Source: a bacterium (lineage in GTDB: Bacteria; CSSED10-310; JAJRTK01). Taken from it: 34,126 bases of DNA. How positions within the stretch are numbered: the first letter of the stretch is position 1; each line of letters opens with the position of its first letter. The stretch spans positions 1 through 34,126 of the forward strand of contig JAJRTK010000082.1 in NCBI GenBank assembly GCA_024278345.1, given 5' to 3'. Positions 5,272-28,200 of the stretch are shown here, one piece after another. The translations under genes and the position numbers were made by a program. The notes below the pieces were generated by a model. The model was not told where the DNA came from. It ran no database searches and saw nothing but the letters and a program-made list of their open reading frames with translations.

Positions 5272-6246
5272 TCAGCCGTCCAATCTGTTTCTCAGATTCT
5301 CGATGCGCCGCATGAGGTCAGCCTGCGCTTCCAATATCTGGATCGCTCGGCTCGATAGCTCCGCAAGCTCCCGTTTCAAGACAGAGGCTTCGGCGCCCCC
5401 TTCCCATTGATCGAGGGAAGTTGTGGTCTCCCCCTGGTCGGCGCGAACTCGCCATTCGGCTTCTTCCATGCGGCGGGCGCCCACTTGCCCCAACCGGCCC
5501 GTATCCGTTGGGACCATATTGGGGAGGCGAGTGGTCTCGTCCGCCATGATGGGCATGCGAATCGAGCGCGTCTCTTCATCCGGGTCCGCTGCTTCGCCGC
5601 TCCCCAATGCTTCCTGCGCCTTTTGGATTTGCTCGCGCTTTCTCCGCAAGAGATCTTCCCGGTATCGGCGCCCAATCTCCACGAGAAGCATTCGACCGAT
5701 ACTCTGGAATGACTCCAAGATGCCCTCGCCATCAAGGGACGAAGTAGCAAACCACGGAACCCGGCGCATGTTCAAGTCACTGTTGAGCTGCTCGATGGAG
5801 CGCGCCGTTTCCAAGTCTCTTTTGTTGTAAAGGAACATCAGGGGAACAGAATCAGGATCGGGTCCTCGAGCCGACAATTCTTTGACAAGCGCCTCGTAGG
5901 ACCCGCGATTCATTTCAGCGGCCCCGGGGCCAGAATCGGCTACGAAGACGACGGCATCGACCCCTTGCAAGACCTTGTCCCAGGTTTCTTCGGCGGAGAT
6001 ACTGCCAGACGCGGTCATCAACTGAAAACGAATTCGCATTCCGGTGACCTCTCCGACATTGACCGGATGGAAGTCGAAGTACATGAGACTGCCTTCACCG
6101 GAAGCAACTGTAACGAGTTTCCCGCGGGCCTCGGCATCGACCCGATCAAAGATGTACCGAAGCGTTGTGCTCTTTCCGGCCTTGCGCGGACCGCAATAGA
6201 CAATCTTCCCGGTGATTTCTCGCTCTTTGTAATTGTAAAATACCAT
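5272..6246 (-). CDS. MglA-like small GTPase with long coiled-coil C-terminal extension
   Basis: Residues 1-190 follow Myxococcus MglA, a cell-polarity GTPase, almost without gaps: MVFYNYKEREITGKIVYCGP, P-loop GPRKAGKST (19-27), FDF, QGVDAVVFVADSG, NKRD (141-144) and SSLDGEG. Two catalytic positions differ. The equivalent of Arg53 is Ser, and the equivalent of Gln82 in the PGQ motif is Ser (TASGS). Residues 195-212 and 286-322 are Glu/Arg/Leu-rich and probably coiled coil, with a disordered acidic linker between; MglA itself ends near 195. I chose ATG 6246 because it matches the MglA start; a TTG at 6288 would add 14 unrelated residues. No roadblock gene is adjacent, but two roadblock-like genes lie at 21371-22628. 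The protein is cytoplasmic, and a role in polarity or localisation is inferred. Confidence 0.85.
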   Translation of the reverse strand: MVFYNYKEREITGKIVYCGPRKAGKSTTLRYIFDRVDAEARGKLVTVASGEGSLMYFDFHPVNVGEVTGMRIRFQLMTASGSISAEETWDKVLQGVDAVVFVADSGPGAAEMNRGSYEALVKELSARGPDPDSVPLMFLYNKRDLETARSIEQLNSDLNMRRVPWFATSSLDGEGILESFQSIGRMLLVEIGRRYREDLLRRKREQIQKAQEALGSGEAADPDEETRSIRMPIMADETTRLPNMVPTDTGRLGQVGARRMEEAEWRVRADQGETTTSLDQWEGGAEASVLKRELAELSSRAIQILEAQADLMRRIENLRNRLDG

Positions 6247-7299: not shown

Positions 7300-7686
7300 A
7301 ATGAAAAATGGACGGAGTCGATTGGGTCCTCTTTGGTGAGGAAGTTCGCCGGTGGCAAAATGGGCGGCCAGCGTGCAGCGGTGGCGAGCGATGGGAGCGG
7401 AAGCCAACTCAAGGTAGAATAGTCGGTTCATCCTGTTTGGGCCTCGATGCTGGAGCCAATCCAAGGGCGAACGCTGTTTGGGCCATCAACTACAGTCTGC
7501 TAGTTTACTTGGGAAATCAATGCTTCAGTTGAAAAGTGGATTTCCACTGGGTTGGTGGCGCAGCGGGAATCCATCTGGGTTTTCATCGTGGAGCAACCAC
7601 TTTTCGTCAGAAAAATCAGGAAAAAGCGCCAGAATGATCCAGACCAACGGGAAGGTGGCTGGCAGCGATTCCACAGAGATAACGAC
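7300..7686 (+). other. 387-bp non-coding leader before the giant kinase gene
   Basis: No gene is recognisable. The kinase frame is open upstream to a TTG at 7552, but the added residues have no domain character. A short inverted repeat, AGTGGA-TT-TCCACT, lies at about 7535-7548, and a second copy of CCACTTTTC near 7599 can pair with its left arm. No convincing promoter was found. Confidence 0.3.
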
Positions 7687-10600
7687 ATGCTGGACAAGAA
7701 CAAGCCGACATCACCGGGAGACGAAGGATCCGCTGAAGAGAGCTCTGCGATGCTGTCGGACTTTATGAAGCACATCAACGAGCTGGCTGAGATCGATCTT
7801 TCCGAGGCGCATCCGATTCCGGAAGATCTGGGTTTTGCGGATTCCGGCGACGAAAAAGAAAAGATCTCGTCACAGGAAATGCTGGACTCTTTTTCAGAGC
7901 CGACAATCCGTATGGCCCCGGCCAGCGTCAAAGCTGTAGCCAAAGTGGATGGAAGCGAGCAAGCCCCGTTATCCCAGGGTGGTTTTTGCGCCAATAGCTT
8001 CGGTGCTGGGTCGCAGCTTTCGGAGGTGTCCCATGGGGCCGAGGTCCCTGTTCTCCTCGCTGGCCGTTACCGGTTTGACGACGAGATTGGCCGCGGTGGC
8101 ATGGGGGTCGTCTATCGGGCTTTCGATATTCGCCTCGAGAGGATCGTGGCGCTCAAGACGGTTCGTTTTGCCGACAAGAGCCCTGAACAGATGGATCGTT
8201 TGGTGCAGCGGTTCATCCGTGAGTGCAAGGTTGTAGCCAGCCTCAACCACCCGAATCTCGTGACGGTTTTCGACGCTGGCGAGTCGGAAGGAATCCTCTA
8301 TCTGGTCATGGAGTTCGTGAAGGGCAAGACTCTGCAGCAGATTATCCGTGAAAAGAAGAGCATGCCTCTTGACGAAGCTGCAAGCTGTATCGCCCAGGTC
8401 TGCGATGGCTTGGAGTTCGCCCACCGTGCGGGGATCGTCCACCGGGATATCAAGCCGGCCAATATCATGATTTTGGACAACGGCCTTGCGAAAGTAATGG
8501 ATTTTGGGCTGGCGCACGTGGACGACACGCCGCACGACTTAACTGGCGGCTTCATCGTAGGAACGCCGGATTACATGCCGCCGGAGCAAGTCAAGAACGA
8601 GGGGATCGACAACCGTTCGGACGTTTTCAGTCTTGGGAGCGTTTTTTATCTTTTATTGACGGGCGAAAAGCCATTTTCGGGCAAGAAGCTCGAAGAGGTT
8701 TTGGCCGCTGTTCTTTTCTCTGAACCCCCGCCAGTTTCATCGAAGAACAAAGATCTTGATCCGGTGGTTGATCAAGTCCTTGCCAAGTTTCTTGCCAAGA
8801 AGAAAGAAGCAAGATTTCCGTCGGCCGCGGAAGCGGGAGAGGCGGTTCGCAACCTCTTGGCTCTGACAACCTTCGATCAGACTGAGACCCTGGAAGGAAT
8901 GAGCTTCCGGCGGGGTCTGGTCGAGCGGTTGCCCCTTCCGTTGTCCCGCCTCTACTCCAGGGCGTTTAATACGAAGGATCCGCGGGACCGTCTTCACAAC
9001 ACAATGCTGCTGGCTGACGCCTACATCACGTTGATCGCCGCCTTGTGTGTGACGTTCTACCTGGAAAAGATGCCCAGGAACAAGAAGATCGATGCCCGGC
9101 TCAAGACCTTGATTCTTCCCTCTCTTGGGGATTGGTTGCATTGGATGCTCCTTATCGGCAAGTACGCCGGGCTCTTGTCCGAGACCGACACGCAGTATCC
9201 CGCACGCCTCAACCAGGCAATGTTGGAGGTGAGGGCCGACCGGGAAGGCTTGGCGCGGGGCTGCCAGACCCTCTCCAAGTTGTTGGGGCTCGCCCAGGAG
9301 GAAGCAACGGTTCTGACGCTTCTCAAGCTGGTCGTAGAACTGAAGAGCAAGATGCGAATGCTCGAGGATCTCCCCATGGATCAGATCGATCCGCTGGGCG
9401 TTTGCATCTTCAATGCCCTGTCGGATGTGCTGCTCGTGGTCGATCCACTCATGCGCACCGGGGAAATACTCTTTCTTGGTGAGGCCGTGCAAATGTCCAT
9501 GACGGAGGTTGAGATCCCGCGTCTCAACCTGCGCGGCTCCACTCCGCTTCGGATTTCTCCACTTCGCTGTCCTCCCAGCGAGGCGCGGTATGCTTCTGAC
9601 CGGCTCTACTATTTTCCGGCTGGAGAACAGGAGCCCTGGTCTCTAGGGCCTCTTGTGACCTACTTGGAGCACGACCTGGGTGGAGATTTTTACTTCCTGA
9701 GTGGCAATTGGAGAAACGCCGACATCCACTTTTTGTCCTACAACACGGGTCACCGTTACCTCTCCGTGGCGCTGGCGGAAGAACAATTGGCTTTGGCAAC
9801 CCGAGTCTACGACCGGGAGGTGACAGCCGACGAGCTCCGGGAATTACGGCAAGAAATGTGGGAGACCCATGCGGAGCGTTTGCCAGAGGGCGAAGAGCCC
9901 CAGGGCCGAGTCACGGGGGATTTCGAGATCCTGGAGAAAATCGGTATCGGTGGGATGGGGACGGTTTACAAAGCCCGGCAGTTATCGCTCAATCGCATCG
10001 TGGCCCTAAAGATGCTTGATCACCGTCGAGTCTCCGACGAGATCACGGTGGCCCGATTCAAGCGCGAAGTTGCGACCCTGGCATCCTGCGACCACCCCAA
10101 CATCGTCAAAATCGTTGATAGTGGTTTTGAAAAGGGCGAGTACTACTATGCGATGGAGTACATCGATGGCATCACGTTGGGGGAGCTATACTCCCATGTA
10201 GGAGAAGCATCCCAGCTCAAGCCACTGACCCAGCAGAACTGGGACAAGATACGTGAGGCATTTGTCTTCAAGGGGAGAAAGACAAGAAGCGATTCCGTCT
10301 ACGCAGGTCGCAGTTATTATGAGACCGTGGCTCTGATCGCCCGGGACGTTGCTGACGCTCTGCAATACACCCACGAGATGGGCATCCTTCACAGAGACGT
10401 GAAGCCGTCAAACATCATGCTCACGCCAACGGGGCATGTGGTTCTCATGGATTTCGGTCTTGCCAAAGGGATGGGTGACAACACGATGACCGTGGCGGAC
10501 CACGCTCTGGGGACGCTGCGCTACGCATCGCCCCAGCAGCTTCAATCTCGGAAGATGGCCATCGATCATCGAACCGACATCTATAGCCTGGGAGCGACTC

Positions 10601-13600
10601 TGTACGAGTTGACAACCCTCAGTCCCGTTTTCGATGCGGACTCGGAAGCGGAGGTCATCACGAAGGTCATCTACGACGATCCTGAGCCGCTTAGGCAGCT
10701 CAATCCGCGGATTCCGGCAGATCTGGAAGTCATCGTAAACAAGGCGATGGCTAAGCGACCTGAAGATCGGTATGCGGATGCCTCAGACTTCGCCGACGAT
10801 CTGGAGAACTTTGTCGCTGGGAAAAATATCAAGGCGCGGCCGCCATCGCTAGTGGCGGTTCTTCGCGGAACGGTCCGACGCCACAAAGAGGCTTCCATCA
10901 CCGCCTTCGCCGCACTTCTCCTTCTTATAGCCGGAACCGTTCTGGGTGTTCTGAACATCAATGCTGAAAAGATCGTGGCTCAAAATGCCCTGGCCTTGGC
11001 CCAAGACAACTTGACCCTAGCCTATGCCAACGAAGGAACCTCCTACTTGGAGAGGAAACGCCCTTTAGAGGCGGCTTTTTCCTTCTATGAAGCCCTTCGC
11101 CTGAGCGATGGTTGGGAAATCCGAGCCGGACTTCTTGAAGCGATTACTCAAACGCCGAGGCTAGCCTCCGTCCTCTCAGGTCCACAATCGGAAGTCAGGA
11201 TTCTGGCACTGAGCGCTGACTCACGGATCTTGGCTTCCGGTGGCGGACAGGGGCAGGTCGTACTTTGGGATCTCAAACGCAAAAAGAAGCGGGCACGGAT
11301 CAAGACGGAAGGCAAGAAGATTGCGGCGATCTCCGTCAGCTCTGACAACCAGTATTTGGTCGTTGCCGGTGGAACGGGCACCATCGAGGTTATTGATCTG
11401 AAGAGCTTGGAGCAGCTTTTCACCCTTGAGGGTGATGGTCGGATCGCGTCGATGGCTCTCAGCCCCGACTCGAAACTGCTTGTAGCGGGGCAAAGAGATG
11501 GCACAATCTTCGTATGGACCCTTCAAGATGGGAAACTGCTGAAAAACTTGACAGGTCATGGAGGCGCCGTGAACGCTATCGTCTTCAGTCATGACGGAAA
11601 ACTCATTGCGTCCGGGAGCAGCGACACGTCGATAAAACTGTGGGACCGGGAGCGTTTTCAAGAAGTGGCGAATTTTGAGGAAGGTGCATCCAAGGTTCAG
11701 TCGCTTGCCTTTTTGCCATCGAATGAAACGCTTATAGCGGCTGGGAGTCGAGAGCTCAGGTTTTGGGACGTGCGAAGCCACCGCTCCACAGGAAATGTTG
11801 TTTTGGATGCACCAGCGTTCTCCATGGCACTCTCGCCGGACGGTCTTTCCATCGCCGTGACTTCGGGCCGCGAGATCAGGCTCTACGATAGCCTCCAACG
11901 AAACCTCAAGGCAATCCTCAACGCCCACTCCCTTCCCGTACGTTCAGTGCTTTTTGCATCGGTTGGTGATTGGCTTTTCTCCGGTAGTGATGATGGCACC
12001 ATCAAGGGTTGGGATTTGGCCGAACGGCCAGAGCAGGTGACATTGCGAGGCCACAGTGGAATCATCCACAGCATCGCTGTCAGTCCCGACGACAGCCTGA
12101 TTGCCTCCGGCAGCAGTGATCGGACCATCCGGCTTTGGGACCTTGAGACCAAACAGCAGACAGCAGTGCTATCCGGTCACGAAGACGAAGTGTTCGGCGT
12201 GACCATCAGCCACGACAGCAACCTACTTGCATCGGGAAGCGGAGATGGCACCATCAAGATATGGGATTTGCGGACGCTCCAGGAAGTCCAAACTCTGAGG
12301 GGACACCAGGATCTGGTCTGGTCGGTTTCCTTCGGGCCTGATGACAAGATCTTGGCATCGGGAAGTGAAGATGGAACCATCAAGCTCTGGGATCTTCACA
12401 AGAGATCTGAGATTGCTACGCTGACGGGGCACAACTATGCGAGCGTGAATTCCGTTCGATTCATGCCCGGCGGCACCCGGCTGGTTTCCGGAAGTGATGA
12501 CTTGACGATCGGCATCTGGAACGTCAAGAACCGCCTGGAAGAAGGTGTGCTCTCGGGGCATACAGGCTATGTCTATGCAGTGGATGTTACACCGGACAGG
12601 CAGACGCTGGTTTCCGCGGGCCGCGATCTTGTGGGTAAGGTGTGGTCGTTGCCGGAGAAACGGGAGCTTGCAACTCTTGTGGGGCACACGGATCTCGTCT
12701 GGACCGTTGCGGTGAGTCCTGACGGAAAACTCCTGGCTACGGGAAGCGATGACAGAACCGTCAAGCTGTGGGATCTGTCGGAAAAGCGATTGTTGGCGAC
12801 ACTCCGGGGCCACCGGGCAGCAGTCAGTTCCGTGAGCTTCACGTCGTCGGGGCGGTATCTGGTATCCGGAAGTAAGGATCTCACGGTGAAGATCTGGGAT
12901 CTGAGCTTCTTCACGGAGCCCCTGGATGAACTCTTGAGCAAGTTGAAAACCGGCTACCTCATGCCTTATCAGGGCTCTAGGTTCCAGCCTCTCTTCTTTG
13001 CCTTCATTGCCACCGCCGTCAACGATCTTCTGGACAATGAAAAGGGGGTCTGTTCCCGGCCGGCAGTTGAAAGGATCGCGCGGAAACTAAGGGATACGGG
13101 AGTCACCCCAGGCGATTTAGCCTACCTGGTCCGCCGGCTTCACGGCAAGCTCACCATCGATACAGCAACCGTCGCTCGCAGTCTCTATGGCCCCGAGGCT
13201 TGGAAAGCTCCGCCCACTCGTGAATTTCTCTTGGCCGCCGCAGAGTATTTCCTTAATAAGATGGACCTTAAACTGGCCAACCGCAGCTACAATGATTATT
13301 TCAAGACCTACTCGACACAAGCGACAATAGCGGCTGACAAGATCAAGGTGGCCCTTGCCTACCTGCAGAGAAATGCAAGCCCTGGTTACGCGGAGAAACT
13401 CGCCAGAGCGGCCACTCAGAGTCAACCGAAAGATTCATGGTACAAGCTTGTCTACGCTCTGGCGATGATCCGCCGGAACGAATTTCGGCACCCCATCAGC
13501 CTCCTGGAAGGGATAGCTGAAGATTTCGATCTTGATGAAAGCCGTTTCGCTGCTTACACTTATTGCCTTGGAATCAGCTATTATCGCGTGGGGAGAGTGG

Positions 13601-13710
13601 ACGAGGGGATCGATTTGATGAAACGCTCCGCTGAAATGACAGAGAGTGAATGGGGACGACGTGCCGCGGAGTTTTTGAAAAAGCAGAGCATCGACTTTCT
13701 CCAGGATTGA
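7687..13710 (+). CDS. Giant dual Ser/Thr protein kinase with membrane helix and 14 WD40 repeats
   Basis: This is a 2007-residue signalling protein. Residues ~128-395 are a complete Hanks-type kinase: GRGGMG, Lys157, Glu179, HRDIKPAN with Asp254, and DFG at 272. Residues ~400-745 are a helical region I cannot assign. Residues ~755-1055 are a second complete kinase: GIGGMG, Lys775, HRDVKPSN with Asp904, and DFG at 922. It carries an insert of ~45 residues before helix E. A single membrane helix lies at ~1070-1090. Residues ~1165-1741 hold 14 WD40 repeats, enough for two seven-bladed propellers, and the last 265 residues look TPR-like. If the helix spans once, both kinases are cytoplasmic and the propellers are outside. 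I chose ATG 7687 over TTG 7552 because the earlier residues are not domain-like. It is followed after 8 bp by the TPR/transglutaminase gene. Confidence 0.93.
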   Translation: MLDKNKPTSPGDEGSAEESSAMLSDFMKHINELAEIDLSEAHPIPEDLGFADSGDEKEKISSQEMLDSFSEPTIRMAPASVKAVAKVDGSEQAPLSQGGFCANSFGAGSQLSEVSHGAEVPVLLAGRYRFDDEIGRGGMGVVYRAFDIRLERIVALKTVRFADKSPEQMDRLVQRFIRECKVVASLNHPNLVTVFDAGESEGILYLVMEFVKGKTLQQIIREKKSMPLDEAASCIAQVCDGLEFAHRAGIVHRDIKPANIMILDNGLAKVMDFGLAHVDDTPHDLTGGFIVGTPDYMPPEQVKNEGIDNRSDVFSLGSVFYLLLTGEKPFSGKKLEEVLAAVLFSEPPPVSSKNKDLDPVVDQVLAKFLAKKKEARFPSAAEAGEAVRNLLALTTFDQTETLEGMSFRRGLVERLPLPLSRLYSRAFNTKDPRDRLHNTMLLADAYITLIAALCVTFYLEKMPRNKKIDARLKTLILPSLGDWLHWMLLIGKYAGLLSETDTQYPARLNQAMLEVRADREGLARGCQTLSKLLGLAQEEATVLTLLKLVVELKSKMRMLEDLPMDQIDPLGVCIFNALSDVLLVVDPLMRTGEILFLGEAVQMSMTEVEIPRLNLRGSTPLRISPLRCPPSEARYASDRLYYFPAGEQEPWSLGPLVTYLEHDLGGDFYFLSGNWRNADIHFLSYNTGHRYLSVALAEEQLALATRVYDREVTADELRELRQEMWETHAERLPEGEEPQGRVTGDFEILEKIGIGGMGTVYKARQLSLNRIVALKMLDHRRVSDEITVARFKREVATLASCDHPNIVKIVDSGFEKGEYYYAMEYIDGITLGELYSHVGEASQLKPLTQQNWDKIREAFVFKGRKTRSDSVYAGRSYYETVALIARDVADALQYTHEMGILHRDVKPSNIMLTPTGHVVLMDFGLAKGMGDNTMTVADHALGTLRYASPQQLQSRKMAIDHRTDIYSLGATLYELTTLSPVFDADSEAEVITKVIYDDPEPLRQLNPRIPADLEVIVNKAMAKRPEDRYADASDFADDLENFVAGKNIKARPPSLVAVLRGTVRRHKEASITAFAALLLLIAGTVLGVLNINAEKIVAQNALALAQDNLTLAYANEGTSYLERKRPLEAAFSFYEALRLSDGWEIRAGLLEAITQTPRLASVLSGPQSEVRILALSADSRILASGGGQGQVVLWDLKRKKKRARIKTEGKKIAAISVSSDNQYLVVAGGTGTIEVIDLKSLEQLFTLEGDGRIASMALSPDSKLLVAGQRDGTIFVWTLQDGKLLKNLTGHGGAVNAIVFSHDGKLIASGSSDTSIKLWDRERFQEVANFEEGASKVQSLAFLPSNETLIAAGSRELRFWDVRSHRSTGNVVLDAPAFSMALSPDGLSIAVTSGREIRLYDSLQRNLKAILNAHSLPVRSVLFASVGDWLFSGSDDGTIKGWDLAERPEQVTLRGHSGIIHSIAVSPDDSLIASGSSDRTIRLWDLETKQQTAVLSGHEDEVFGVTISHDSNLLASGSGDGTIKIWDLRTLQEVQTLRGHQDLVWSVSFGPDDKILASGSEDGTIKLWDLHKRSEIATLTGHNYASVNSVRFMPGGTRLVSGSDDLTIGIWNVKNRLEEGVLSGHTGYVYAVDVTPDRQTLVSAGRDLVGKVWSLPEKRELATLVGHTDLVWTVAVSPDGKLLATGSDDRTVKLWDLSEKRLLATLRGHRAAVSSVSFTSSGRYLVSGSKDLTVKIWDLSFFTEPLDELLSKLKTGYLMPYQGSRFQPLFFAFIATAVNDLLDNEKGVCSRPAVERIARKLRDTGVTPGDLAYLVRRLHGKLTIDTATVARSLYGPEAWKAPPTREFLLAAAEYFLNKMDLKLANRSYNDYFKTYSTQATIAADKIKVALAYLQRNASPGYAEKLARAATQSQPKDSWYKLVYALAMIRRNEFRHPISLLEGIAEDFDLDESRFAAYTYCLGISYYRVGRVDEGIDLMKRSAEMTESEWGRRAAEFLKKQSIDFLQD

Positions 13711-18426: not shown

Positions 18427-19155
18427 ATGGATATCAACAAGGGCGATTGGAATTTTGGCATCCCAAGCTCCGAAGAGCCAAACCTTGCCAAGCAAACCTC
18501 AGCCCGGGAATCCCGAGATCAAGACTCCCCTTCGGCCCCCAATAAACTGTGTTTTTCCGACGTTCTTGCGGCCATAGAGAACGAGCAACTTTCGGTGATA
18601 ATCGATGTTTTTCTTGGGGCAATTGAGGTGGGTCGCATGGAGTTACTTTGCGGTGTCATCACCCATGCCGAGGTTCCTGGTGAAATCGGAAATGGAGCTC
18701 TCAAGCTCCTTGCCGAAATGCCGCGAGCGGAGCTTTGCATTCTCCCGGCGAGTCCCGATTCCCTGAAGCGCCAGACAGTGACCTCAAGTCTTTGGGAGCA
18801 TTTTGAAGCTTCGATCTTGAGCCCAGCTGATATGGCTCCCCGGCTTGCGTCCTGGATGATTACCCGGGCTCGTGTGGCGGTAGGCGGAAAGCGGAAGACC
18901 GAAGAATTGCCTTTCATGGCGTCTGAGGAGCCTGATCTCGGTTTTTCTGATCCTTCCACGGTGGAGCAAAGCCCGATATCCGACAAGGATCGACGACAAG
19001 AAAAGTTTGACCCACTGTTTCAGCAGGCGATGGGCGCGTACATGAAACGCGACTATGGCGAGGCCCTGAAGCTGTTCGAGGCCTGCGCGGAACTTCGCCC
19101 TGACTCGTCCCGGGTTCGGCAGAACATTGCCAAGATCAAAAACCGGGGAATTTAA
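18427..19155 (+). CDS. DUF4388-like plus single-TPR protein, copy 1
   Basis: The 242-residue soluble protein has three parts. Residues 1-39 are polar and probably disordered. Residues ~40-115 resemble DUF4388 (SDVLAAIENEQLSVIIDVFLGAIEVGRMELLCGVITHAEV), a small alpha/beta domain found in bacterial signalling proteins. A polar linker then leads to one TPR-like motif at ~194-240 (FDPLFQQAMGAYMKRDYGEA, then LKLFEACAELRPDS). The same C-terminal motif closes the next two proteins, so the three are probably paralogues. It is the first gene behind the promoter at 18313. No catalytic residues are visible, and an adaptor or scaffold role is inferred. The DUF4388 call is by pattern and less clear here than in copy 3. 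Confidence 0.75.
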   Translation: MDINKGDWNFGIPSSEEPNLAKQTSARESRDQDSPSAPNKLCFSDVLAAIENEQLSVIIDVFLGAIEVGRMELLCGVITHAEVPGEIGNGALKLLAEMPRAELCILPASPDSLKRQTVTSSLWEHFEASILSPADMAPRLASWMITRARVAVGGKRKTEELPFMASEEPDLGFSDPSTVEQSPISDKDRRQEKFDPLFQQAMGAYMKRDYGEALKLFEACAELRPDSSRVRQNIAKIKNRGI

Positions 19156-19318
19156 CGGAACGAGAGCCACACTCATCCTGACAAAGAGAGAATGGGCAGG
19201 GGCAGGCTTCGGACCGCCCCATTTCCAGAAAACTCATCAAGTTGGTCAGCTTCAAGCGAAGCAGGATCGGCCACGGGCATTCCATTCCACCGCGGTTTCG
19301 CCGCAGAGCTGGAAAATC

Positions 19319-19816
19319 ATGTCTCCGTCTCCAACATTGGCAAAGCAGGAACCCTCTCGAGATCACGCAGCCCCCGGGAGGGCATATCCAGGAATTACGA
19401 GCAAGCTCGAAGCTGGCTCAGCGGCATTGCACTTGGAAACAGAAGTGTATGGAGCCCCTCCTCTCATCGTGACGACGATCTTCTGCAGGGGCAGACTCAT
19501 CCGGTCCACACGGATTCAGCTCTCCGATGCCATGAAGCGGTTTGCCACGCAAGTTGCAGGAGAAGCCATCGAGTTCACCCACAAGGAGGCCCAGGAACGT
19601 ATCCGCCTTCTCGTGGCTCAGAAGAATGATGAATGGCAGCGAAAACAAGGGGAATCAGCTCCTCTGGCGCTCCTTTTCATGAAAGCGGTGGATGCCTATG
19701 CCTCTGGCGATGCCAAGAGCAGTTTGGAAGTCTTCGAGATGCTGGCTTGTCTGTGGCCAGATGAGCCGCGGGTTCAACGCAGTCTCCAGAGCCTCAGATT
19801 GGAAGAAGGGAACTGA
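19319..19816 (+). CDS. TPR-ended paralogue, copy 2, function unknown
   Basis: This 165-residue protein is counted from ATG 19319, which has GGAAAA just upstream. The frame is open back to a TTG at 19127, but the extra residues look non-coding. The middle (ALHLETEVYGAPPLIVTTIF, then CRGRLIRSTRI) is a small beta-rich domain that differs from copies 1 and 3. The end (LLFMKAVDAYASGDAKSSLE, then VFEMLACLWPDEPRVQRSL) is the same single TPR-like motif, including a fixed spacing and the WPDEPRV/RPDSSRV turn. It lies 163 bp after copy 1. I do not recognise the N-terminal domain with confidence. The shared tail suggests that copies 1-3 bind a common partner. Confidence 0.65.
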   Translation: MSPSPTLAKQEPSRDHAAPGRAYPGITSKLEAGSAALHLETEVYGAPPLIVTTIFCRGRLIRSTRIQLSDAMKRFATQVAGEAIEFTHKEAQERIRLLVAQKNDEWQRKQGESAPLALLFMKAVDAYASGDAKSSLEVFEMLACLWPDEPRVQRSLQSLRLEEGN

Positions 19817-20041
19817 AAAAGGCAAAGGCATGAAAAAGCTAACTTTTTTGGCGTAGAGGAGTGTGCTGGTCCGGCCGGGCTGCTCGTCTTGATTCGGCGG
19901 CTCGATGAAAGCCGGCCCCATTCCCACGACCCCCTTCACAACTTTCACAACTTGTGTGATCTCCTTCAACCAGATAGACAGACAATGCCTCTCAACCCCG
20001 CCGCGGATCTTTCCTATCCCGAGGCTTCGTCGAAAGACTGA

Positions 20042-20593
20042 CCATCAATCTCCCTCGCCGGCGATCTGAGGGCGGGATCGCTGATCTACCTTCTGCGCTT
20101 TCTTCTCAGCGGGCAGTACAATGTTTGCATTGAAGTGGGAGATCCAGAAGGAACGGTGGGATGCATCTGGTTGTCCAGCGGCCGGCTATTGGATGCTTTT
20201 AGCAGGGATTCTCATAGCGAAAAGGCCGTAACATCGATGCTTAACGTCACTTCTGGCCATGTGCGGGTTTTCTGCACCGAACCGGAGCACGTCCAGCCAC
20301 GAACCATCAGCGACACATTTCAAACACGGTTGGAGAGCGAAGTGGCCTTGGAAGCTCCATCTCTTAAAAGGTCCACGAGCCCCCACAATTTGTTGCGAGA
20401 TCGGGACGAGGCGAGTGTTTTGGAAGTGGAGATCGAGTTCGACTGGCAGTTCCAACAGGCGGTCATGGCCTACATCCAGAACCGTGAGCAAAAAGCGCTG
20501 GAGCTGTTCGAAAAGTGTCTCGCGATGCGGCCCGGAGACCCAAAAACCATCCATAACATTGAAAAAATCAGAAAGAAGAAAGAACTGCCATGA
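20042..20593 (+). CDS. DUF4388 plus single-TPR protein, copy 3 (start unclear, in-frame TGA just upstream)
   Basis: Similarity begins directly after a TGA at 20039-20041 with SISLAGDLRAGSLIYLLRF, the classic DUF4388 opening. It continues through the GCIWLSSGRLLDAF hairpin and HVRVF, a polar linker, and the shared TPR-like tail (FDWQFQQAVMAYIQNREQKA). No ATG, GTG or TTG lies between the TGA and GTG 20135, and that GTG would cut off half of the domain. An ATG at 19985 is in the same frame and would give an 18-residue leader ending at the TGA. The gene therefore has a rare start codon, a nonsense mutation, a readthrough codon or a sequence error. Its stop overlaps the ParA start as ATGA, which suggests the two are translated together. 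Confidence 0.7.
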   Translation, partial: PSISLAGDLRAGSLIYLLRFLLSGQYNVCIEVGDPEGTVGCIWLSSGRLLDAFSRDSHSEKAVTSMLNVTSGHVRVFCTEPEHVQPRTISDTFQTRLESEVALEAPSLKRSTSPHNLLRDRDEASVLEVEIEFDWQFQQAVMAYIQNREQKALELFEKCLAMRPGDPKTIHNIEKIRKKKELP

Positions 20594-21396
20594 CGGTGTT
20601 AGCAGTCGTGAGCCCAAAAGGTGGTGTGGGTAAGACCACCGTTGCCCTCAACCTTTCCCTCTCCTTCGCTCGGCGCGGATGGTCAGTGCTCCTTGTGGAT
20701 ACCGATCCCCAGGGAGCCATCGGACTGTCCCTCATGGGCCGGGCAAAAGAGAGTCCCGGTCTTGTGGAGTGCGTTTCGAATCAGATTCCCTTGGAGAAGG
20801 CAATCCTCACAACCCGGCTTGGGGGTCTCAGCATTCTCCCCATCGGGCGGATTCCATTCCGTCAGCTTGCTCAGTGGGCCGTTTCAGTGTCGGATGGAAG
20901 GCGTTTGAGACCGCTTTTCCAGAAGGCGGAAAAACTATACGACCTCGTCATCGCAGACACGGGCTCGGGTTTGTCGGGAGTCACCTATGGAGTCATGAGC
21001 GGCTCTACTCATCTCCTGTCGCCACTCCAATCCGAACCTCTCTCTCTTCGGGCAATGCCACAGCTTCTGGAGATTGTCACGGGTTTGCAAGAGCGGGGCC
21101 TCGACCTGCAGATCGCCGGACTTCTGCTGACGATGGTCCAAAGGCAGAATGAGGTTTCCCTGTCAGTGCTCAGGGAAACGTGGAAGCTCGTTCCCAAGGA
21201 GCTTCTCCTGGACACCTTCATCCCCCGGGAACCCGCTTTCCTTGATGCCAGCGCAAAAGGAGCTCCACTGGGTCTTGTGAGTCGCCGGCCTCCCAGGGTT
21301 GCCATCGTCTTCGATCAGCTCGCGGCAGAGCTGGAACATCGAATCGGACTCACCTGCGAGGAAAGCGAAGATGAACCGCTCTCTCTCCTGGATTGA
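20590..21396 (+). CDS. ParA/MinD-family ATPase
   Basis: The 268-residue cytoplasmic ATPase has the deviant Walker A PKGGVGKTT with the signature Lys10 (residues 9-17), Walker A' LLVDTDPQG at ~35-43 and a Walker B-like YDLVIADTGSG. A C-terminal FIPREPAFLDASAKGAPLGL is typical of the Soj/ParA group. It is small, with no N-terminal DNA-binding domain, like the ParA proteins that position protein cargo or the MinD type. No amphipathic C-terminal membrane helix is obvious. ATG 20590 lies in an ATGA overlap with copy 3 of the TPR family, and the gene overlaps the next by 26 bp. No ParB gene is visible. The context suggests positioning of a protein complex rather than plasmid partition. Confidence 0.9.
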   Translation: MTVLAVVSPKGGVGKTTVALNLSLSFARRGWSVLLVDTDPQGAIGLSLMGRAKESPGLVECVSNQIPLEKAILTTRLGGLSILPIGRIPFRQLAQWAVSVSDGRRLRPLFQKAEKLYDLVIADTGSGLSGVTYGVMSGSTHLLSPLQSEPLSLRAMPQLLEIVTGLQERGLDLQIAGLLLTMVQRQNEVSLSVLRETWKLVPKELLLDTFIPREPAFLDASAKGAPLGLVSRRPPRVAIVFDQLAAELEHRIGLTCEESEDEPLSLLD

Positions 21397-22048
21397 CGGA
21401 ACACGTTGGCGGAAGCTCGTCAAGTCCGTCCGGCGAAGTGAGCCGCCTGTCTCGGACTACGGGCAGGAAGGTTTCCTCAGCCTGGACTCCCTCAAGAGCT
21501 TCGGAACGCTGGAAACGAATAAGAGCGATGGAAGCTCCCGGCCCTCCGTCGAGCCATCAAAGGTGGCGGACAAAGTTCGCTCCGTACCGCCGAGGTCTGA
21601 TGAAGCTGGTGTCACGGAGAAGCCCCCCGGATCTGGCCACGAAGCTGAAGTCGTCCGCGTGGTTGCGGACCTCGATCTGTCCGGTCCTCTTGAAACGCGC
21701 ATCGCCGCATTTCTGGATTGGGTGGATCAAACGACCGTCTGCTCCGCTGTCTATCTGGCTGACGAGGATGGTCTGGCACTTGCGCAGCACAAATGCAGGC
21801 CCGCGCATATTTCTCTTTCAGCACTCATCCTTCGTTTCCAAGCTGACCTACGCCGGTGGTTCGGAGTGTCGAGGCGGGGAATCGCCTCCATCAACCTCGA
21901 CGACGAATTCACGCTTTACTGCATCGAATGTACAACCCGCTGGGGGCAAATGGCCCTTGGCATCGTGCTCCGAGAAAGCCTCCCTCAACAGACCTTGCGA
22001 AAGATCCAGCACGAGCTCGAACAGGTCTTTACAGAGAAAGGAGTCTGA
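21371..22048 (+). CDS. Roadblock/LC7-like protein with disordered N-terminal region
   Basis: The 225-residue protein begins at ATG 21371, preceded by a GAGGAAAG ribosome site inside the end of the ParA gene. Residues 1-100 are polar, rich in Ser, Pro and Glu, and probably unfolded. Residues ~105-225 fit a roadblock/LC7 fold: a helix (LETRIAAFLDWVDQTT), then AVYLADEDGLALAQ as the central strand-turn, a long helix, and paired strands ending in a C-terminal helix. Such domains act as regulators of MglA/Ras-like GTPases, for instance MglB. The call rests on pattern, not on close identity. It is tightly coupled to the ParA gene (26-bp overlap) and lies 1 bp before the next gene. Confidence 0.65.
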   Translation: MNRSLSWIDGTRWRKLVKSVRRSEPPVSDYGQEGFLSLDSLKSFGTLETNKSDGSSRPSVEPSKVADKVRSVPPRSDEAGVTEKPPGSGHEAEVVRVVADLDLSGPLETRIAAFLDWVDQTTVCSAVYLADEDGLALAQHKCRPAHISLSALILRFQADLRRWFGVSRRGIASINLDDEFTLYCIECTTRWGQMALGIVLRESLPQQTLRKIQHELEQVFTEKGV

Positions 22049-22049
22049 G

Positions 22050-22628
22050 ATGCCTCAGAACTTCGTCGCCCAAGCAGTGGAAGACGTGCCAGGTATGAGA
22101 GCCATCTTCATTACGGCAATGCCTGACGCTCTCCTGTATGATTACTGGATCCGGGAAAACGACAACTGGTCTGCGGAAGATGTCGCCTCCTATTTCGGGG
22201 ATCTCATCCGAGCAAACCGCGAGGGCCTCAAAGCCCTGGGATCCTGGTCTTCGGAAATGCAAGTCACCATCGAATCGGCCGATACACTGGTGGTTCTCCG
22301 CGAGCTCACCAACGACTTCGTTTGCGGTGGAGTCTTCGACCGCAAGACACCGTTGGGCATGGTCCGTCTCCACCTCAAGAGGGTAACGGAGCGCCTTATC
22401 GATCATCTTCCTTCCTTCGAGGTGGAAGAGCGCCCCCGAGGGGTCCGCGTCATGGAGTTCCTTCAACGGTATGCTCCGGATCCTCACATGGTCATGCTTC
22501 GCGTCGCCATGCAGACAGGCATCGATCTGGAAATGCTCCGAACACCAGAAAAACTCGATAAAGCGCAGGTGCATCAAGTGGAAGAAGCGACTCAACGGAT
22601 CCTCGGTTTGGACAGCCTCAATATCTGA
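22050..22628 (+). CDS. Second roadblock/LC7-like protein
   Basis: The 192-residue cytoplasmic protein starts at ATG 22050, one base after the stop of the previous gene, with AGGAG upstream. Residues ~1-120 look like a roadblock/LC7 domain: FVAQAVEDVPGMRAIFITAM, a polar loop, SAEDVASYFGDLIRANREGL as the long helix, and TIESADTLVVLRELTNDF with a final pair of strands. The last 70 residues are helical and may be a separate small domain. Its arrangement beside another roadblock-like gene suggests a heterodimer. A direct link with the distant MglA-like GTPase is inferred only. Confidence 0.62.
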   Translation: MPQNFVAQAVEDVPGMRAIFITAMPDALLYDYWIRENDNWSAEDVASYFGDLIRANREGLKALGSWSSEMQVTIESADTLVVLRELTNDFVCGGVFDRKTPLGMVRLHLKRVTERLIDHLPSFEVEERPRGVRVMEFLQRYAPDPHMVMLRVAMQTGIDLEMLRTPEKLDKAQVHQVEEATQRILGLDSLNI

Positions 22629-22825
22629 GGTCCCGGGGGATGTCGATACTGCTTCCCCGCCGTGCTCCCAAATCCTCAGAAACCAAGAGGGGAACATGAA
22701 CGGCTCGGCACCAGGTTGCGCCGGTCACCTCGGACGGTAAGAGAGATGAAACACCAACGCGACACTTTGTTTCAGGCCGGGTTTTCATTCGCCTGCACCA
22801 GCCGCGCCACCAAGGAGTGAACGTC
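22629..22825 (+). other. Gap between the roadblock pair and the V4R gene
   Basis: This 197-bp gap breaks the tight packing of the island. It contains a 14-codon open frame (ATG 22696 to TAA 22740) behind a strong AGAGGGG, which may be a leader peptide or chance. No clear promoter or terminator is seen. Confidence 0.3.
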
Positions 22826-24085
22826 ATGCAGGAGCTCAACTCTCTGAAGACACTGCTACCTCAACACGATCTGACTTTTTTAGCTGGAGTTCCTTACGTC
22901 TACCATTGCCACCACTTCAACCTCTTCCACGACCAGACAATCTCCGACGTGTTGGGAGAGGAACGGGGTCTAGAGTTTCGCTCCCGAGCCGCGCACCGGG
23001 CCTTTTCCCAGCTTTTGGATCGCATCTTCCAGGCTCTGGGGACCGACACGCCGCCCGAGCGATTTGAGATCGCAGCCCGCCTCTTCGCCTGGATGGGGCA
23101 GGGCAAGATGGAGTTTTCTTTATCTCCGGAGGGTGGGACTACCAGGGGAATGCCCCTGCACTACAGCTTTGCCTGGAAGCAGAAATACGGTTCAAAAATC
23201 CGCTGTCGCTTCCCTGTCGATGCCGTAGGCGCCGGTTTTTCAGCGGCAATAGGCGAAGCCGGTTTCAACCTTGAGCCGGGGTCATTTCAGGCCACTGAAA
23301 CAACTTGTATCGCCCAAAAACATACACACTGCGGGTTCACAATCAGCGCGGGCGGATCCGAGTCAGCCAAGCCTCTTCCGGTTCAACAAGATCTGGAACA
23401 ACTTGTGGGGCCAAGCTTCCCTGGAGAGCACGAGGGAGAAATCGTCCGGATTCTGGCACCCCTTCGGGAATTCCTAGCGGGAGTCGCAGGGGACGAGCGT
23501 GGGCTCATCCAGGCATTCAATATCTTTGCCGCTGCGCACCTTACAGCCTACTACAACCGTACGGCCTTCGGCCTCATCCACCACCTGGAATCCGGCAACC
23601 CCAAAATGCTCCCCATCGCCGTGCAACTTCTTCGAGAGGCGGGCCGGGTCTGCGTGTTCAACACCTTTGGAAACCTGATGCTTTCCCCGGAATGGGAGGG
23701 GCTCGCTTCGGCTCCCAGCGGCGCCATCGAGGAGACGGTCCTCTCCTGTATGACCATTGCCCGCGGGCTGGGATTCGGACACTGGACCATCAAGGAAATT
23801 GAACCCAGCAAACGGTTTGTTCTCCAAACTCCCAGCAACTACGAGTCGCCCTTCTACATCCACCAGTACGGGACTTCGGAAAAAGCCCGATGCTACTTCC
23901 TTCAAGGAGCCGCCCACGCGATCATGCTCCTGGCCCACGAAGTGGACTGGAAAGCGCGACCGGAGCTCACGGAAGAACTCTATTTTCGCCTCTTCCACGG
24001 CTCCAAAACCAATTGGGTCGTGGAAGAAACCCGGTGCAGGAGTCAAGGGAATCCCCTGTGCGAAGTGGTGGTCACCCATCGCTGA
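22826..24085 (+). CDS. Protein with two V4R-like (4-vinyl reductase) domains
   Basis: The 419-residue soluble protein has two related halves. The N-terminal half (~1-170) shows YVYHCHHFNLFHDQTI, a long helix, then CIAQKHTHCGFTI. The C-terminal half (~220-419) shows IFAAAHLTAYYNRTAFGLI, HWTIKEIEPSKRF, an ARCYFLQGAAHAIM helix, and ends with VVEETRCRSQGNPLCEVVV. That ending is the C...G...C pattern of V4R domains, which bind small hydrophobic ligands or metal and serve as sensors. ATG 22826 is used because AGGAG lies 8 nt upstream; GTG 22817 would add three residues. It is the last gene of the island, before a strong inverted repeat. The ligand is unknown; a sensory input role is inferred. Confidence 0.75.
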   Translation: MQELNSLKTLLPQHDLTFLAGVPYVYHCHHFNLFHDQTISDVLGEERGLEFRSRAAHRAFSQLLDRIFQALGTDTPPERFEIAARLFAWMGQGKMEFSLSPEGGTTRGMPLHYSFAWKQKYGSKIRCRFPVDAVGAGFSAAIGEAGFNLEPGSFQATETTCIAQKHTHCGFTISAGGSESAKPLPVQQDLEQLVGPSFPGEHEGEIVRILAPLREFLAGVAGDERGLIQAFNIFAAAHLTAYYNRTAFGLIHHLESGNPKMLPIAVQLLREAGRVCVFNTFGNLMLSPEWEGLASAPSGAIEETVLSCMTIARGLGFGHWTIKEIEPSKRFVLQTPSNYESPFYIHQYGTSEKARCYFLQGAAHAIMLLAHEVDWKARPELTEELYFRLFHGSKTNWVVEETRCRSQGNPLCEVVVTHR

Positions 24086-24149: not shown

Positions 24150-24915
24150 TCAGCTCCAGCGACCGCGAAACTCCTCCATGTACTCCACCAAGAGGCGGAC
24201 TGAGCTCACCGAGCGGGCATTGTATGTGGAGGCGCGGATCCCTCCCACGGACCGGTGTCCGCGAAGTCCGAAGAGTCCTTCCTTCTCTGCGCCGTCGGCG
24301 AACCGTTCTTCGAGCTCGGTGGAGGGCAATCGGAAGCAAACGTTCATCCAGGATCGGCTCTCGGGCTGGGCATGGCCTTTGTAAAAGCCTTGGGAGCCAT
24401 CGATAGATCCATAGAGGAGACTGGCCTTCTCTCGATTTCGCCGTTCGATCTCCCCCAGGCCACCTTGGGAAAGAAGATCATCCAACACGAGCCCCACGAG
24501 GTAGATGGCAAAAACGGGAGTAATTCGTTTCCTCGCTGGACCAGATCCCCTTGGCCCGCCCGATCTTGTTCGCCTCGGAAAGCGCGCCCGATGCCCATCG
24601 GCCGGTGACGATGTATTCGGCCTCCGACCCCTCCGATAGCAGATTCATGGGAACCAGGCCGAACTGTGTTCTAGCGCCGCCGCCCATGAAGATGACAGAG
24701 TAGTCGTCCGAGATCTCCAAAAGCTTCTTGAGATCGGCAATCGCCTGATTGTGAACCCGATCGTAAACCGCGCTACGATGGCTCATCTCAAGAATCGACA
24801 TGCCGGCACCCTGGAAATCGAGAAGCTCGGCCCTAGCTCTCTCCAATACCCCTAGCGGCAAGGCTGCCGGGCCCGCCCCAAAATTATGTACTCGCGAAAG
24901 CTTGGCTTGACTCAT
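24150..24915 (-). pseudogene. serC: Phosphoserine aminotransferase with large internal deletion and frame change
   Basis: SerC makes phosphoserine from 3-phosphohydroxypyruvate with PLP. From ATG 24915 (ribosome site GGGAGAG) codons 1-134 match its N-terminus (FNFGAGPAALP-type start HNFGAGPAALP, MSHRSAVYD, MGGGARTQFGLVPMNLL, SSEETNYSR). The next matching stretch, FAIYLVGLVLDDLLSQGGLG, is in another frame. It runs to the true C-terminus (RSWMNVCFRLPS, LRGHRSVGGIRASTYNA, MEEF) and stops at 24150. Against E. coli SerC, roughly 110 residues are missing at ~24510-24514, including the PLP-binding Lys segment (GAQKNIGPAG). The first frame stops at 24478. Both ends are otherwise well kept, so the loss is recent or an assembly fault. 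It cannot be active as shown. Confidence 0.88.
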
Positions 24916-25239
24916 GGGTCTCTCCCAAATTTGGTTGACCCGGAAGAACCGGGCCGATGGATCTTCGACTTGCGAGGGGTAGAGTCTACGATACTCCCGA
25001 TCCAGGGGCAAGCTCCCGAAACAGTGCCGAGAAGAGTCATCTCTTACCCACGGGGGCACGATCTTGAAGATGTTTTTTTCTTGGGGTTGCGGCCGCTCTC
25101 GTCGTGCGGCAGCCGCCGCGCGCCAATCGCCTTTTTTCCTGCCCTGAAACAGAATTCCGATCCCGTGAACCCATCGAGCCTGAACTTTCCGGGGAATCTG
25201 CTTATAGTGGAAAGGCAATGTCTTTCGGAAGCAATCCAA
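24916..25239. other. Divergent gap between serC remnant and the second TPR/transglutaminase gene
   Basis: These 324 bp hold no gene that I can support, although one plus-strand frame stays open through it. The serC side has a ribosome site and a CCCGG-TTCTT-CCGGG hairpin near 24945-24959. The plus-strand side has the promoter listed at 25180-25208. Confidence 0.4.
25180..25208 (+). promoter_or_regulatory. Candidate sigma70 promoter for the second TPR/transglutaminase gene
   Basis: CTGAAC (25180-25185, 3/6) and TATAGT (25203-25208, 5/6) are spaced by 17 bp. Transcription would begin near 25215, giving a short leader with a GGAAG ribosome site eight bases before ATG 25240. This supports 25240 over the much earlier starts that the open frame allows. 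Confidence 0.5.
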
Positions 25240-28200
25240 ATGCCCAGGCCCGCCCATCAAGCAAAGAATGGAACCCGGCGCCGGCCGATCTCGTGCCGAT
25301 CAGGCGGGAGCCGCCGGAAACCGCGGAGATTGTCTCCGTGTACAACAGCCTCCTGGATTGAGCTGATCCTGCTTTTCTCTCTGCTCTGTGTGCCGGCGTT
25401 CGCAGGAAAGGGCCCAACCGCCCGGGCGAATCCCGGCGGGCCAGGGGGACTTTTGGCGCCTCGGCCCGAGGGTCGAGCCACCGAACCACTGGAGGCCAAA
25501 GCGGGGATTTTCCCGAAGTCCCGGCCAGGCCCGATGGAGGAAGCTAAAGACCGGGACCTAAGGGAGGAAGCTGAAGACCGGGACCTAAGAGAGCAGGCTT
25601 TGAAAGCCCTGCTCCAAGCGGATTTCCACGGCGCAGCCAACCTCTGGATCCAAGGGTTGGACCGCGAGCCGAAGCTCGCGGCTAGCCTGGCCCAGGTGGC
25701 TCTACAGTTCGAGTGGCTCACCGAGAGGCGCGGGATTCTTGAGAAACTCGACCAGATGAGCTCCCGCCAGCTTCCCGTGGCTACGCGAAGACTGCTGAAT
25801 CAGCTGCGTCTCGACCTGGCCCTGCAGCTTGGAGCCGGGAAAAGAATCAGGCGGATCTCACGACAACAGGGGACATTTCGTGAATTTGTCCGGATCTCCT
25901 TTCCGCTTCCAGGCCACGATCCCTTTGCCACCGGGCACCTTCCCGGACCCAAAGAAAGAAAGGACTACCGCGTAGGGACGAAGCCCCCGCTCTTTTTCGA
26001 GCCCGACCTCTGGAGCTCGGGGAAAAAAAGCGCCATTTTGTGGGGTGGTTTCCAGATCGGCCAAAAAGAGGCCGCCCGTTTTGTTCTGGAAACCAATGGC
26101 CCGGCTCTCCTGGCGGTGGATGGCAAGATCGTCGTGGTGGCCGATCCGGAACTGGGTCGGCCCGCGGGACGCCTTGAGATCCTGGCTAACCTGGATTCGG
26201 GATCCCATACTCTGCTGCTTCTAACCCGGAGACCGGATCACGGGCTTCCCTGGCGCACGCGGCTCTTGGTCCAGGACGATACCGGAACCAGCCTGGGAGT
26301 TTTTCCGCTGCCGGCTATGGCGGAAGTTGAGAAAAACCGGTTTTTCTCCGGCTTTCCAAGGGCTTTTCCGGCAGCTCCCCCTCTACCCGCCGTGGGGGAC
26401 AACCTTCTAGATGAGCTGGATCGGGCGGCGGTGGAGATGGAACGGGGAAATCTGACCACCGCGGAAGCTCGATTGGAGATCCTTGCGGAGAAGTTCCCGA
26501 AAAACGAAGCTGTCACCTTTTATCAGGTCCTCTGCCAGAAGAAACTGGCTCGTTGGAGCAGAAGCGCCAGGCGGCACAAAACCGAGTTGAACCGCTATTT
26601 GGGGAAGATCGCCGCCGACAAAAGGGGCTCGCTTCTTCTCCGCCTCCTGGCCGCGCGGCATTTGGCGGCAGCGGGAGAAAGCCGCCGCTCTTTGGCGCTG
26701 CTCCAGACCGCTCCCGGTACGACTCTCCTTTACAAGCTCGTCGCCGCGGAGTGGCTTCATCGCTACGGCCTGGAACAAGATAAGCTCGATCTCCTGCGCC
26801 AGGGAAACAGAATCGCGCCGGGTTTCCTTCCAGTGGCTTTCGAGCTCGCCCGGGCTCTCGAGTCGGACCACCGGCCTTTGGAGGCTCTGAGGATTGCTCG
26901 CCGAGCCTTCTCTCAAAACCGGCGGCACACAAAGCTGCGGGCCTGGGCGGTACGCCGTCTTGCGATGATTGGCCAGACAGCGGAAGCTCTGGAGCTCTGC
27001 GCCAATCCTGGGCTGGCGGCACCTTCCCAGGCGAAGGATCTTTGCGAGGCCCCTGCCTGGATCCAAGGCGGGCAACCTGAAAAAGCCCAAGAGATCCTCC
27101 GGCCCGTGGCGCGCGATCTTCCCGCCCTGGCTCCAGTCCGAAAAATCCTTATCTCCGCCCTGGATCTCATGGGGTTTGGGAAAGAAGCGGACAAGGAACG
27201 CCAGGAGTTGGCTCAAATCGAGGGAACGGGGCCAGGGGCCCTCCGTGGGCTGGTCCGGGATCTTGACACGAATCTTGAGCAGCTCCTGGAATCCGCCTCA
27301 AGGCCGCTGCCGATTTCCCCATTCCAACGGCCGAATTCCGCACCCAACCGGCTCGCAAGGCCTCTGCCCTCAATGGGGCAAGAGGTTTTCCCAGAGATCG
27401 CCAAGGGTGCCGACGCGGTTCAGCTTCTGGATATCTCCATCGTGGATATTGACCGGACCGGTCGCTTCCGGGAATTCTACCACGGCTCGATTCAGCCGCT
27501 GACTGCCCGGGGCCGGGAGGAAGCGGGAGAACTCCGCCTTCCCGCCGACGGGACCCTTCTTCGTGCTTTCGTGCGCCTTTCTACTGGCGAAACCCTGCTT
27601 CCGGAGCAGATCCAGAAGAGCGAGGAAACTCAGGTCATTTCCTTCTACGGCTTGGCTGAAGAGGCGGTGACGGATTTTTCTTGGCGCCGGCCAGCGCGGC
27701 CCATCGAGGAGCTGGACATCCAGTTTGTCTTCGGCGCTCAAAACGACCCTCTCTTTCTGAGCCGCTTCTGCCTTGCGACGCCGCCAGGCTCGGATCCCGT
27801 AGAGATCAAGATCCAGCGGTCCCAGAATCTCCAGGAACGACGGGGATATCTGGCTGGCCGGCAACTCAGGTGCTGGGAGCGGACTCTGATTGCGCCCCTG
27901 GGGGAGGAGCCATTCATGCCGGATATCACGGATCTTGCGCCCGGTGTGCGGCTCCTTCCGCGCCGTGATTCCAGTCAGTTCAGACGATTTCTCCTCCGCT
28001 CCCTTGCCGGACTTGCCTCTTACGACGAACGGTTCATTCTGGAAGCCTACAAGATCTTTCAAGGCGCCGATCTGGACGCTGCCTGGATCTATCGTTTCGT
28101 TCGGGACAAGATTGCCGATGGCGGCGCTGCATCCAGCGCGACCGACGTACTGATCCTCAAGGGGGGCAATCCCGCTCTTCGGGTAGCCCTTGCCAAACTC

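Follow-up and report, generated by a model that had tools for sequence, protein, structure and literature searches.

The DNA considered here is a bacterial contig analysed at its whole length of 34126 bases (C549, GenBank JAJRTK010000082.1; hereafter the window), which belongs to an assembly of 6.06 Mb that is 88% complete. Its positions 18427-24085 carry seven genes, all on the plus strand, the last four of which constitute the unit that is the main subject of this study: gene D (20590..21396) for a ParA-type ATPase of 268 residues, gene E (21371..22048) for a protein of 225 residues with a predicted roadblock domain, hereafter abbreviated as RB1, gene F (22050..22628) for a second protein of this predicted fold, RB2, and gene G (22826..24085) for a putative double V4R sensor protein. 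They are preceded by genes A, B and C, the products of which have C-terminal TPR tails. The compact arrangement on a single strand described in an earlier note on this DNA is found as claimed: gene C and the ParA gene share an ATGA overlap (20590-20593), the ParA and RB1 genes overlap by 26 bp (21371-21396, the ATG of RB1 at 21371 lying within the ParA gene) and the RB1 stop at 22048 is 1 bp apart from the RB2 start at 22050; a spacing of 197 bp then separates the end of RB2 from the ATG of the V4R gene at 22826.

The assignment of protein D to the ParA type, also made in that note, is borne out by its match to AAA_31 in Pfam (E = 1.5e-23) together with its deviant Walker A motif, KGGVGKTT, which is kept as KGGxGKT at all 33 aligned loci homologous to it; proteins of the ParA family in the PDB are matched with E = 1e-19. 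The tail of the protein is short and acidic and ends with (D/E)xPIxLxD or a similar sequence, and a MinD-type C-terminal amphipathic membrane helix was not seen in it, as judged by inspection of the tail only. The best match in NCBIfam is ParA_partition (E = 2e-19), which could be taken to indicate that the cluster serves the partition of DNA, either of a plasmid or of an integrated element. However, the score is 70 against a cut-off of 180 and the partner slot in which ParB would be expected is held by a roadblock gene; no match to the ParB family was present among the window cluster proteins in Pfam and NCBIfam, the conserved genes include neither ParB nor a DNA-binding partner, and the cluster is found within chromosomes, for example that of Sorangium. 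On these grounds we rejected this highly improbable reading.

The gene order is kept in relatives, as the earlier note had left for comparison with other genomes. The RB1 gene lies immediately downstream of ParA at 31 of the 33 ParA loci examined, and the ParA-RB1 pair is the common core of the unit. The complete order ParA-RB1-RB2-double V4R (20590-24085 in the window) recurs at 15 loci from nine lineages, mostly Myxococcota, when lineages are counted after merging ParA genes that are more than 70% identical; between these lineages ParA identity is 37-55%. The 15 loci are the window, L011, L012, L014, L045, L046, L049, L076, L078, L079 and L081-L085; the cluster is interrupted by contig ends in L077 and L080. 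Eight of them were reached via RB2 and were left out of RB1 profile building. The RB2 search, which is independent of ParA, gave matches in 15 of 377 Myxococcota genomes, and the strong matches with intact flanks show the complete four-gene order. Among the eight genomes sampled from the source phylum, ParA found no match in the seven others at the cut-off applied; one of these relatives (G003) carries a stand-alone V4R paralogue. The loci found with ParA belong to Myxococcota, Acidobacteriota and one contig labelled Akkermansia. (The latter, L016, labelled Akkermansia muciniphila, has a ParA-RB1 pair on a very long branch and is possibly mis-binned.) The view that the genes are chance neighbours whose folds have been over-read, for which one may cite the lack of Pfam matches for the window roadblock proteins, is ruled out by the conserved gene order across nine lineages at such levels of ParA identity and faces confident models for both roadblock proteins; we consider it hardly credible.

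The roadblock calls of the earlier note stand at the level of predicted fold but not at that of sequence profiles. Pfam Robl_LC7 matches neither RB1 nor RB2 of the window, NCBIfam likewise gives nothing usable, and across the two families Robl_LC7 recognises one of 23 RB1 members (E = 0.005) and none of 18 RB2 members. AlphaFold2 models were built as single chains with family alignments. The RB1 domain (21668..22045) is modelled with a predicted local distance difference test (pLDDT) of 93.1 and the element order α-ββ-α-βββ-α, its best PDB match being MglB (Foldseek E = 6e-6). RB2 (pLDDT 91.3) also presents the roadblock order of elements in its residues 1-117 and finds its best structure matches in an Asgard roadblock protein and MglB, with E from 5e-7 to 1e-6. 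It carries in addition a C-terminal helical domain (residues 130-185), which is the best conserved region among distant members; identity to close family members is 43-63%. Both proteins are thus predicted with confidence to have the roadblock fold, and since the fold matches come without a match to Robl_LC7 we name them roadblock-fold proteins rather than sequence-level members of that family.

Besides its position after ParA and its fold, RB1 is characterised by a layout in which a conserved N-terminal peptide (MNRSLSWID...L, 21371..21445; family pattern RSxSWxD...L) comes first, a variable linker rich in Pro and Ala second and the roadblock domain last. Column information reaches 3.7 bits in the peptide, versus about 0.6-1.3 in the linker. 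Up to position 21396 the peptide is encoded by bases that also encode the ParA tail; a conserved Leu, at column 18, falls outside this overlap, and the overlap alone is therefore insufficient to explain the conservation of the peptide. (The stretch 21371-21396 is dual-coding, ParA tail and RB1 start both being conserved in many lineages.) By analogy, the layout of RB1 resembles that of ParA-activating partners, which trigger ATP hydrolysis by a short N-terminal peptide.

For protein G, ATG 22826, which AAGGAG precedes, is a more probable start than GTG 22817, from which its frame is open. The V4R call made for it holds at the family level. The C-terminal half of the window protein matches V4R (Pfam PF02830) with E = 3.6e-7 and 30.6 bits, 0.4 under the cut-off, and 12 of the 19 family members match this profile, the best with 4e-15. 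The first half aligns with the V4R domains of MJ1460, PoxR and MopR, with weak E-values of 0.17-0.96 and with its zinc-site Cys-x7-Cys pair in register with that of PoxR/MopR. The two halves also align mutually (probability 95%), and by these alignments both are V4R-like. Within the first V4R, the ExxC-x7-C motif (E161, C164, C172; 23297..23332) has a Cys pair that is invariant in all 19 sequences and a Glu that is nearly so. The first zinc-site Cys is replaced by Asp in most cluster members and is Cys in the paralogues L043, L047 and L048, which stand alone outside the cluster. In DmpR the zinc ligands are three Cys and one Glu (PMC7264223), and the first V4R of protein G is thus predicted to retain most of the DmpR/PoxR zinc site. 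A further motif, HCHH (residues 30-33, 22904..22915), has H32 and H33 invariant in 19 sequences and all four residues conserved in the 10 sequences of one alignment (A3), and is kept by the majority of the family. Metal binding by protein G is plausible.

Downstream of the V4R gene the loci differ. In L076-L080 it is followed by a gene for a protein of about 100 residues with the motif CxxxLxWRxDLP, here called gene H, which was not found in the window (L076:9647-9958, L077:4458-4775, L078:1516-1812, L079:5910-6233 and L080:5116-5475). In L011 (11725-12834) and L012 (11788-12888) the protein encoded directly downstream contains DUF4388 at residues 128-224, with E = 6e-15 and 2e-15, respectively.

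V4R is the ligand sensor in DmpR-type regulators (PMC7264223), and the ParA relatives BcsQ and CpaE regulate machines, with weak matches of the window ParA to BcsQ and a CpaE homologue. The unit could accordingly be a ligand-responsive switch without positioning, its ParA-like ATPase, under the control of V4R and the roadblock proteins, regulating in a stoichiometric manner a machine of the pilus, secretion or exopolysaccharide kind. Yet at the loci examined the unit has no conserved machine gene as a neighbour, and the BcsQ match is far under the curated cut-off, so that we judge this explanation improbable.

The ParA-RB1 core also occurs with another kind of sensor. At six loci, namely L009 (on contig C249 of the source genome), L019, L021, L054, L055 and L058, the pair lies behind genes for a canonical roadblock protein (two were tested and match Robl_LC7 with E = 1e-14 and 2e-18) and for a protein of ODP, a family of di-iron oxygen sensors (E = 5e-67 and 2e-71, likewise for two), which are present instead of RB2 and V4R; a PATAN-TPR gene is present in most of these sister clusters. 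That of C249 (L009:4325-8398) has two ODP genes and is followed by a gene for a histidine kinase with PAS and receiver domains. A third group of loci has the ParA-RB1 core without a V4R or ODP cassette, and several of its members carry PATAN-TPR genes. In the ParA tree the V4R-type loci are not all united, with at least two changes being forced, yet the labels are strongly grouped. In view of the sister form the sensor looks interchangeable: the ParA-RB1 core seems able to combine with more than one type of sensor cassette, and each type brings a second roadblock protein.

The earlier note had placed a triplet of DUF4388-TPR adaptors, encoded by genes A, B and C, among the defining parts of the system. 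The TPR tail is indeed common to the three proteins (A-C E = 9e-10, A-B 1e-5, B-C 7e-5, with 42% identity between the tails of A and C). Only protein C, however, matches DUF4388 in a direct Pfam search, and weakly so (E = 3e-4, 21.1 bits, below the 25-bit cut-off of PF14332; TPR_2 E = 0.002). None of the three exceeds that cut-off, A and B being without any PF14332 match; a relative in L076 exceeds it with 47 bits. Gene A (18427..19155, 242 residues in an open frame) encodes a PATAN/DUF4388-like region before the tail (TPR_2 E = 5e-4), and joins the PATAN-TPR family only via an iterated profile of relatives. In gene C (19985..20593) an in-frame TGA at 20039-20041 falls between the plausible ATG at 19985 and the DUF4388/PATAN domain, the frame being intact from 20042 to 20593; the TGA may reflect a sequence error, a pseudogene or a true start further downstream. 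Gene B (19319..19816, 165 residues) has a frame that is open from 19070 and probably starts at ATG 19319. Its product resembles RomY rather than DUF4388, the N-terminal RomY domain giving the better fit. This domain of NCBIfam (RomY_Nterm, NF053858) is matched with E = 0.0024 and 18.2 bits (18-20 across searches), below the cut-off of 50, and profile-profile comparison with nine RomY domains gives a probability of 94% and E = 1e-7 over 41 columns, covering the first half only. In M. xanthus, RomY stimulates the GTPase-activating protein (GAP) activity of the roadblock protein MglB (PMC9481161), and the only PATAN lead that our literature search gave for myxobacteria is the naming of two such proteins that co-occur with the pilus regulator SgmX (PMC11580455). 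The upstream genes differ between loci, and A-C are therefore not part of the core of the unit, contrary to the prominence first given to the triplet.

The window contains also an MglA-type GTPase gene (5272..6246, minus strand), the presence of which had been brought forward in connection with the cluster. It is a genuine gene of this type, matching M. xanthus MglA with E = 4e-40, but it lies about 14 kb from ParA on the opposite strand, outside the conserved unit, and its use as evidence for the unit is unsupported because, among the other loci examined, an MglA-like gene is near the cluster only at L057. (At that locus an MglA-like GTPase and two roadblock-like genes, at 6843-7451 and 1635-2909, lie near the ParA-RB1 pair.) No MglB was seen beside the window MglA in the flanking translations, the locus has no recognisable RomR or RomX gene, and the canonical roadblock genes of the source genome are on other contigs. 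These data bear on an explanation centred on MglA, according to which RB1 and RB2 would be accessory platforms, of the GAP or guanine nucleotide exchange factor kind, for an MglA-type GTPase encoded elsewhere, ParA would only place the complex at a pole, gene B would act like RomY and V4R would provide ligand control. It draws on MglB, which ranks first among the structure matches of RB1 and near the top for RB2, on the RomY likeness of protein B, on the MglA gene of the window and the MglA-like gene near L057, and on the distribution of RomY, which exceeds its cut-off in 12 of 12 cluster-bearing genomes versus 210 of 356 genomes in the phylum sample, in counts that ignore relatedness. On the other side, the GTPase is outside the conserved neighbourhood, both RB1 and RB2 are too divergent for Pfam, and the invariant neighbour of RB1 is ParA, not a GTPase. 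The co-occurrence of RomY with the cluster fits a link with the polarity machinery, relatedness being uncontrolled; we therefore retain the MglA-centred explanation as possible, if rather unlikely.

ParA systems place chromosomes, plasmids, chemosensory arrays, division sites and carboxysomes in the cell, and roadblock proteins are regulators of small GTPases. From the gene anatomy we propose that the unit is a ligand-controlled ParA positioning system in which the roadblock proteins form the partner platform, a proposal that we hold about as apt to be right as wrong. The earlier suggestion of a positioning machine with ligand input is, we infer, the best reading of the conserved unit, which would probably move or place something in the cell upon a chemical signal. 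In the mechanism envisaged, ParA-ATP dimers would bind the nucleoid, a step beside which the acidic tail and the absence of a MinD-type helix are to be cited; the N-terminal peptide of RB1 would contact ParA and stimulate ATP hydrolysis, its linker and roadblock domain holding the cargo side; the roadblock domains of RB1 and RB2 would pair with each other, and RB2 would dock the double V4R protein with its additional helical domain. Ligand binding by V4R would then change the platform and with it the cargo's position, number or release, the same change being produced in the sister form by oxygen at the di-iron site of ODP. The effector to which the PATAN-TPR and RomY-like TPR proteins would connect the unit would most likely be the polarity machinery of MglA and type IV pili. 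More tentative is the generalisation that such roadblock proteins are ATPase-activating partners of ParA, forming positioning machines with plug-in sensors, V4R for small organic ligands and ODP for oxygen.

Several points weigh against this positioning proposal. No cargo gene is conserved among the loci. The RB1 of C249, which has no overlap with ParA, is missing the peptide motif; the conservation of RSxSWxD in the other proteins may partly reflect the ParA frame with which its bases are shared. The RomY counts given above speak for the proposal, but they ignore relatedness.

Two other features of the window lie apart from the unit. Beyond the V4R gene, a SerC-like aminotransferase gene (24150-25260, minus strand) seems to be without its middle part, its N-terminal part (profile-tested) and what is likely its C-terminal part being in different frames; either the gene is broken or the assembly is at fault here. 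At 7552-13710 the window encodes a very large protein of 2052 residues, in which a serine/threonine kinase is fused to many WD40 repeats.

If the positioning proposal is true, the unit would link chemistry directly to spatial organisation, with cargo placement responding to a metabolite or gas; its occurrence in Sorangium places it in a culturable genus. The claim that no described system has this gene set agrees with our literature search, which found no matching paper and no description of DUF4388/PATAN, ParA, roadblock and V4R together, weak evidence since most subscription papers and all bioRxiv preprints lay outside it. Among the nearest relatives in design are ParABS, PomXYZ, McdAB and chemosensory ParC/PpfA, which likewise combine ParA with a partner in which a linker joins a short conserved N-terminal peptide to a domain that dimerises; in the present unit, unlike in these systems, the partner domain is a roadblock and a dedicated ligand sensor is encoded in the operon. 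To our knowledge, neither a roadblock-type ParA partner nor a ParA system with its own ligand sensor in the operon has been described. The MglA-MglB-MglC-RomRX-RomY module of M. xanthus, mostly of the same phylum, is alike in having two paralogous roadblock regulators (MglB and MglC) and a RomY-like protein, but the invariant partner of our unit is a ParA ATPase and not a Ras-like GTPase, and V4R or ODP sensors are added.

Among systems that couple roadblock proteins to sensors, the actinobacterial conservons (CvnABCD) are also operons built around a roadblock protein, and contain a histidine-kinase-like sensor, a Ras-like GTPase and CvnC (PMC13343842), whereas Ras-like GTPase, CvnA and CvnC domains were not found among the window cluster proteins with Pfam and NCBIfam. 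Protein G has the signals of the V4R fold and the zinc-site pair Cys-x7-Cys in common with the sensors DmpR, PoxR and MopR, but differs from them in its tandem V4R, in the lack of AAA+ and DNA-binding domains, in the change of one zinc Cys to Asp and in the added HCHH motif. The ODP-family gene of the sister clusters recalls the oxygen sensor of Treponema chemotaxis, although it stands beside ParA and roadblock genes instead of chemoreceptors and is absent from the window cluster. V4R is homologous to Bet3 of TRAPP (PMC2253512), and the eukaryotic TRAPP and Ragulator complexes similarly feature V4R (Bet3-like) proteins and roadblock dimers as GTPase platforms; the likeness is at the fold level only, the bacterial proteins being found with a ParA ATPase, and the bacterial pairing of V4R and roadblock proteins is of relevance to how these eukaryotic parts arose. 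Set against all these systems, the single parts of the unit are of known kinds, and it is the combination of ParA, a roadblock partner and interchangeable sensors that appears to be new.

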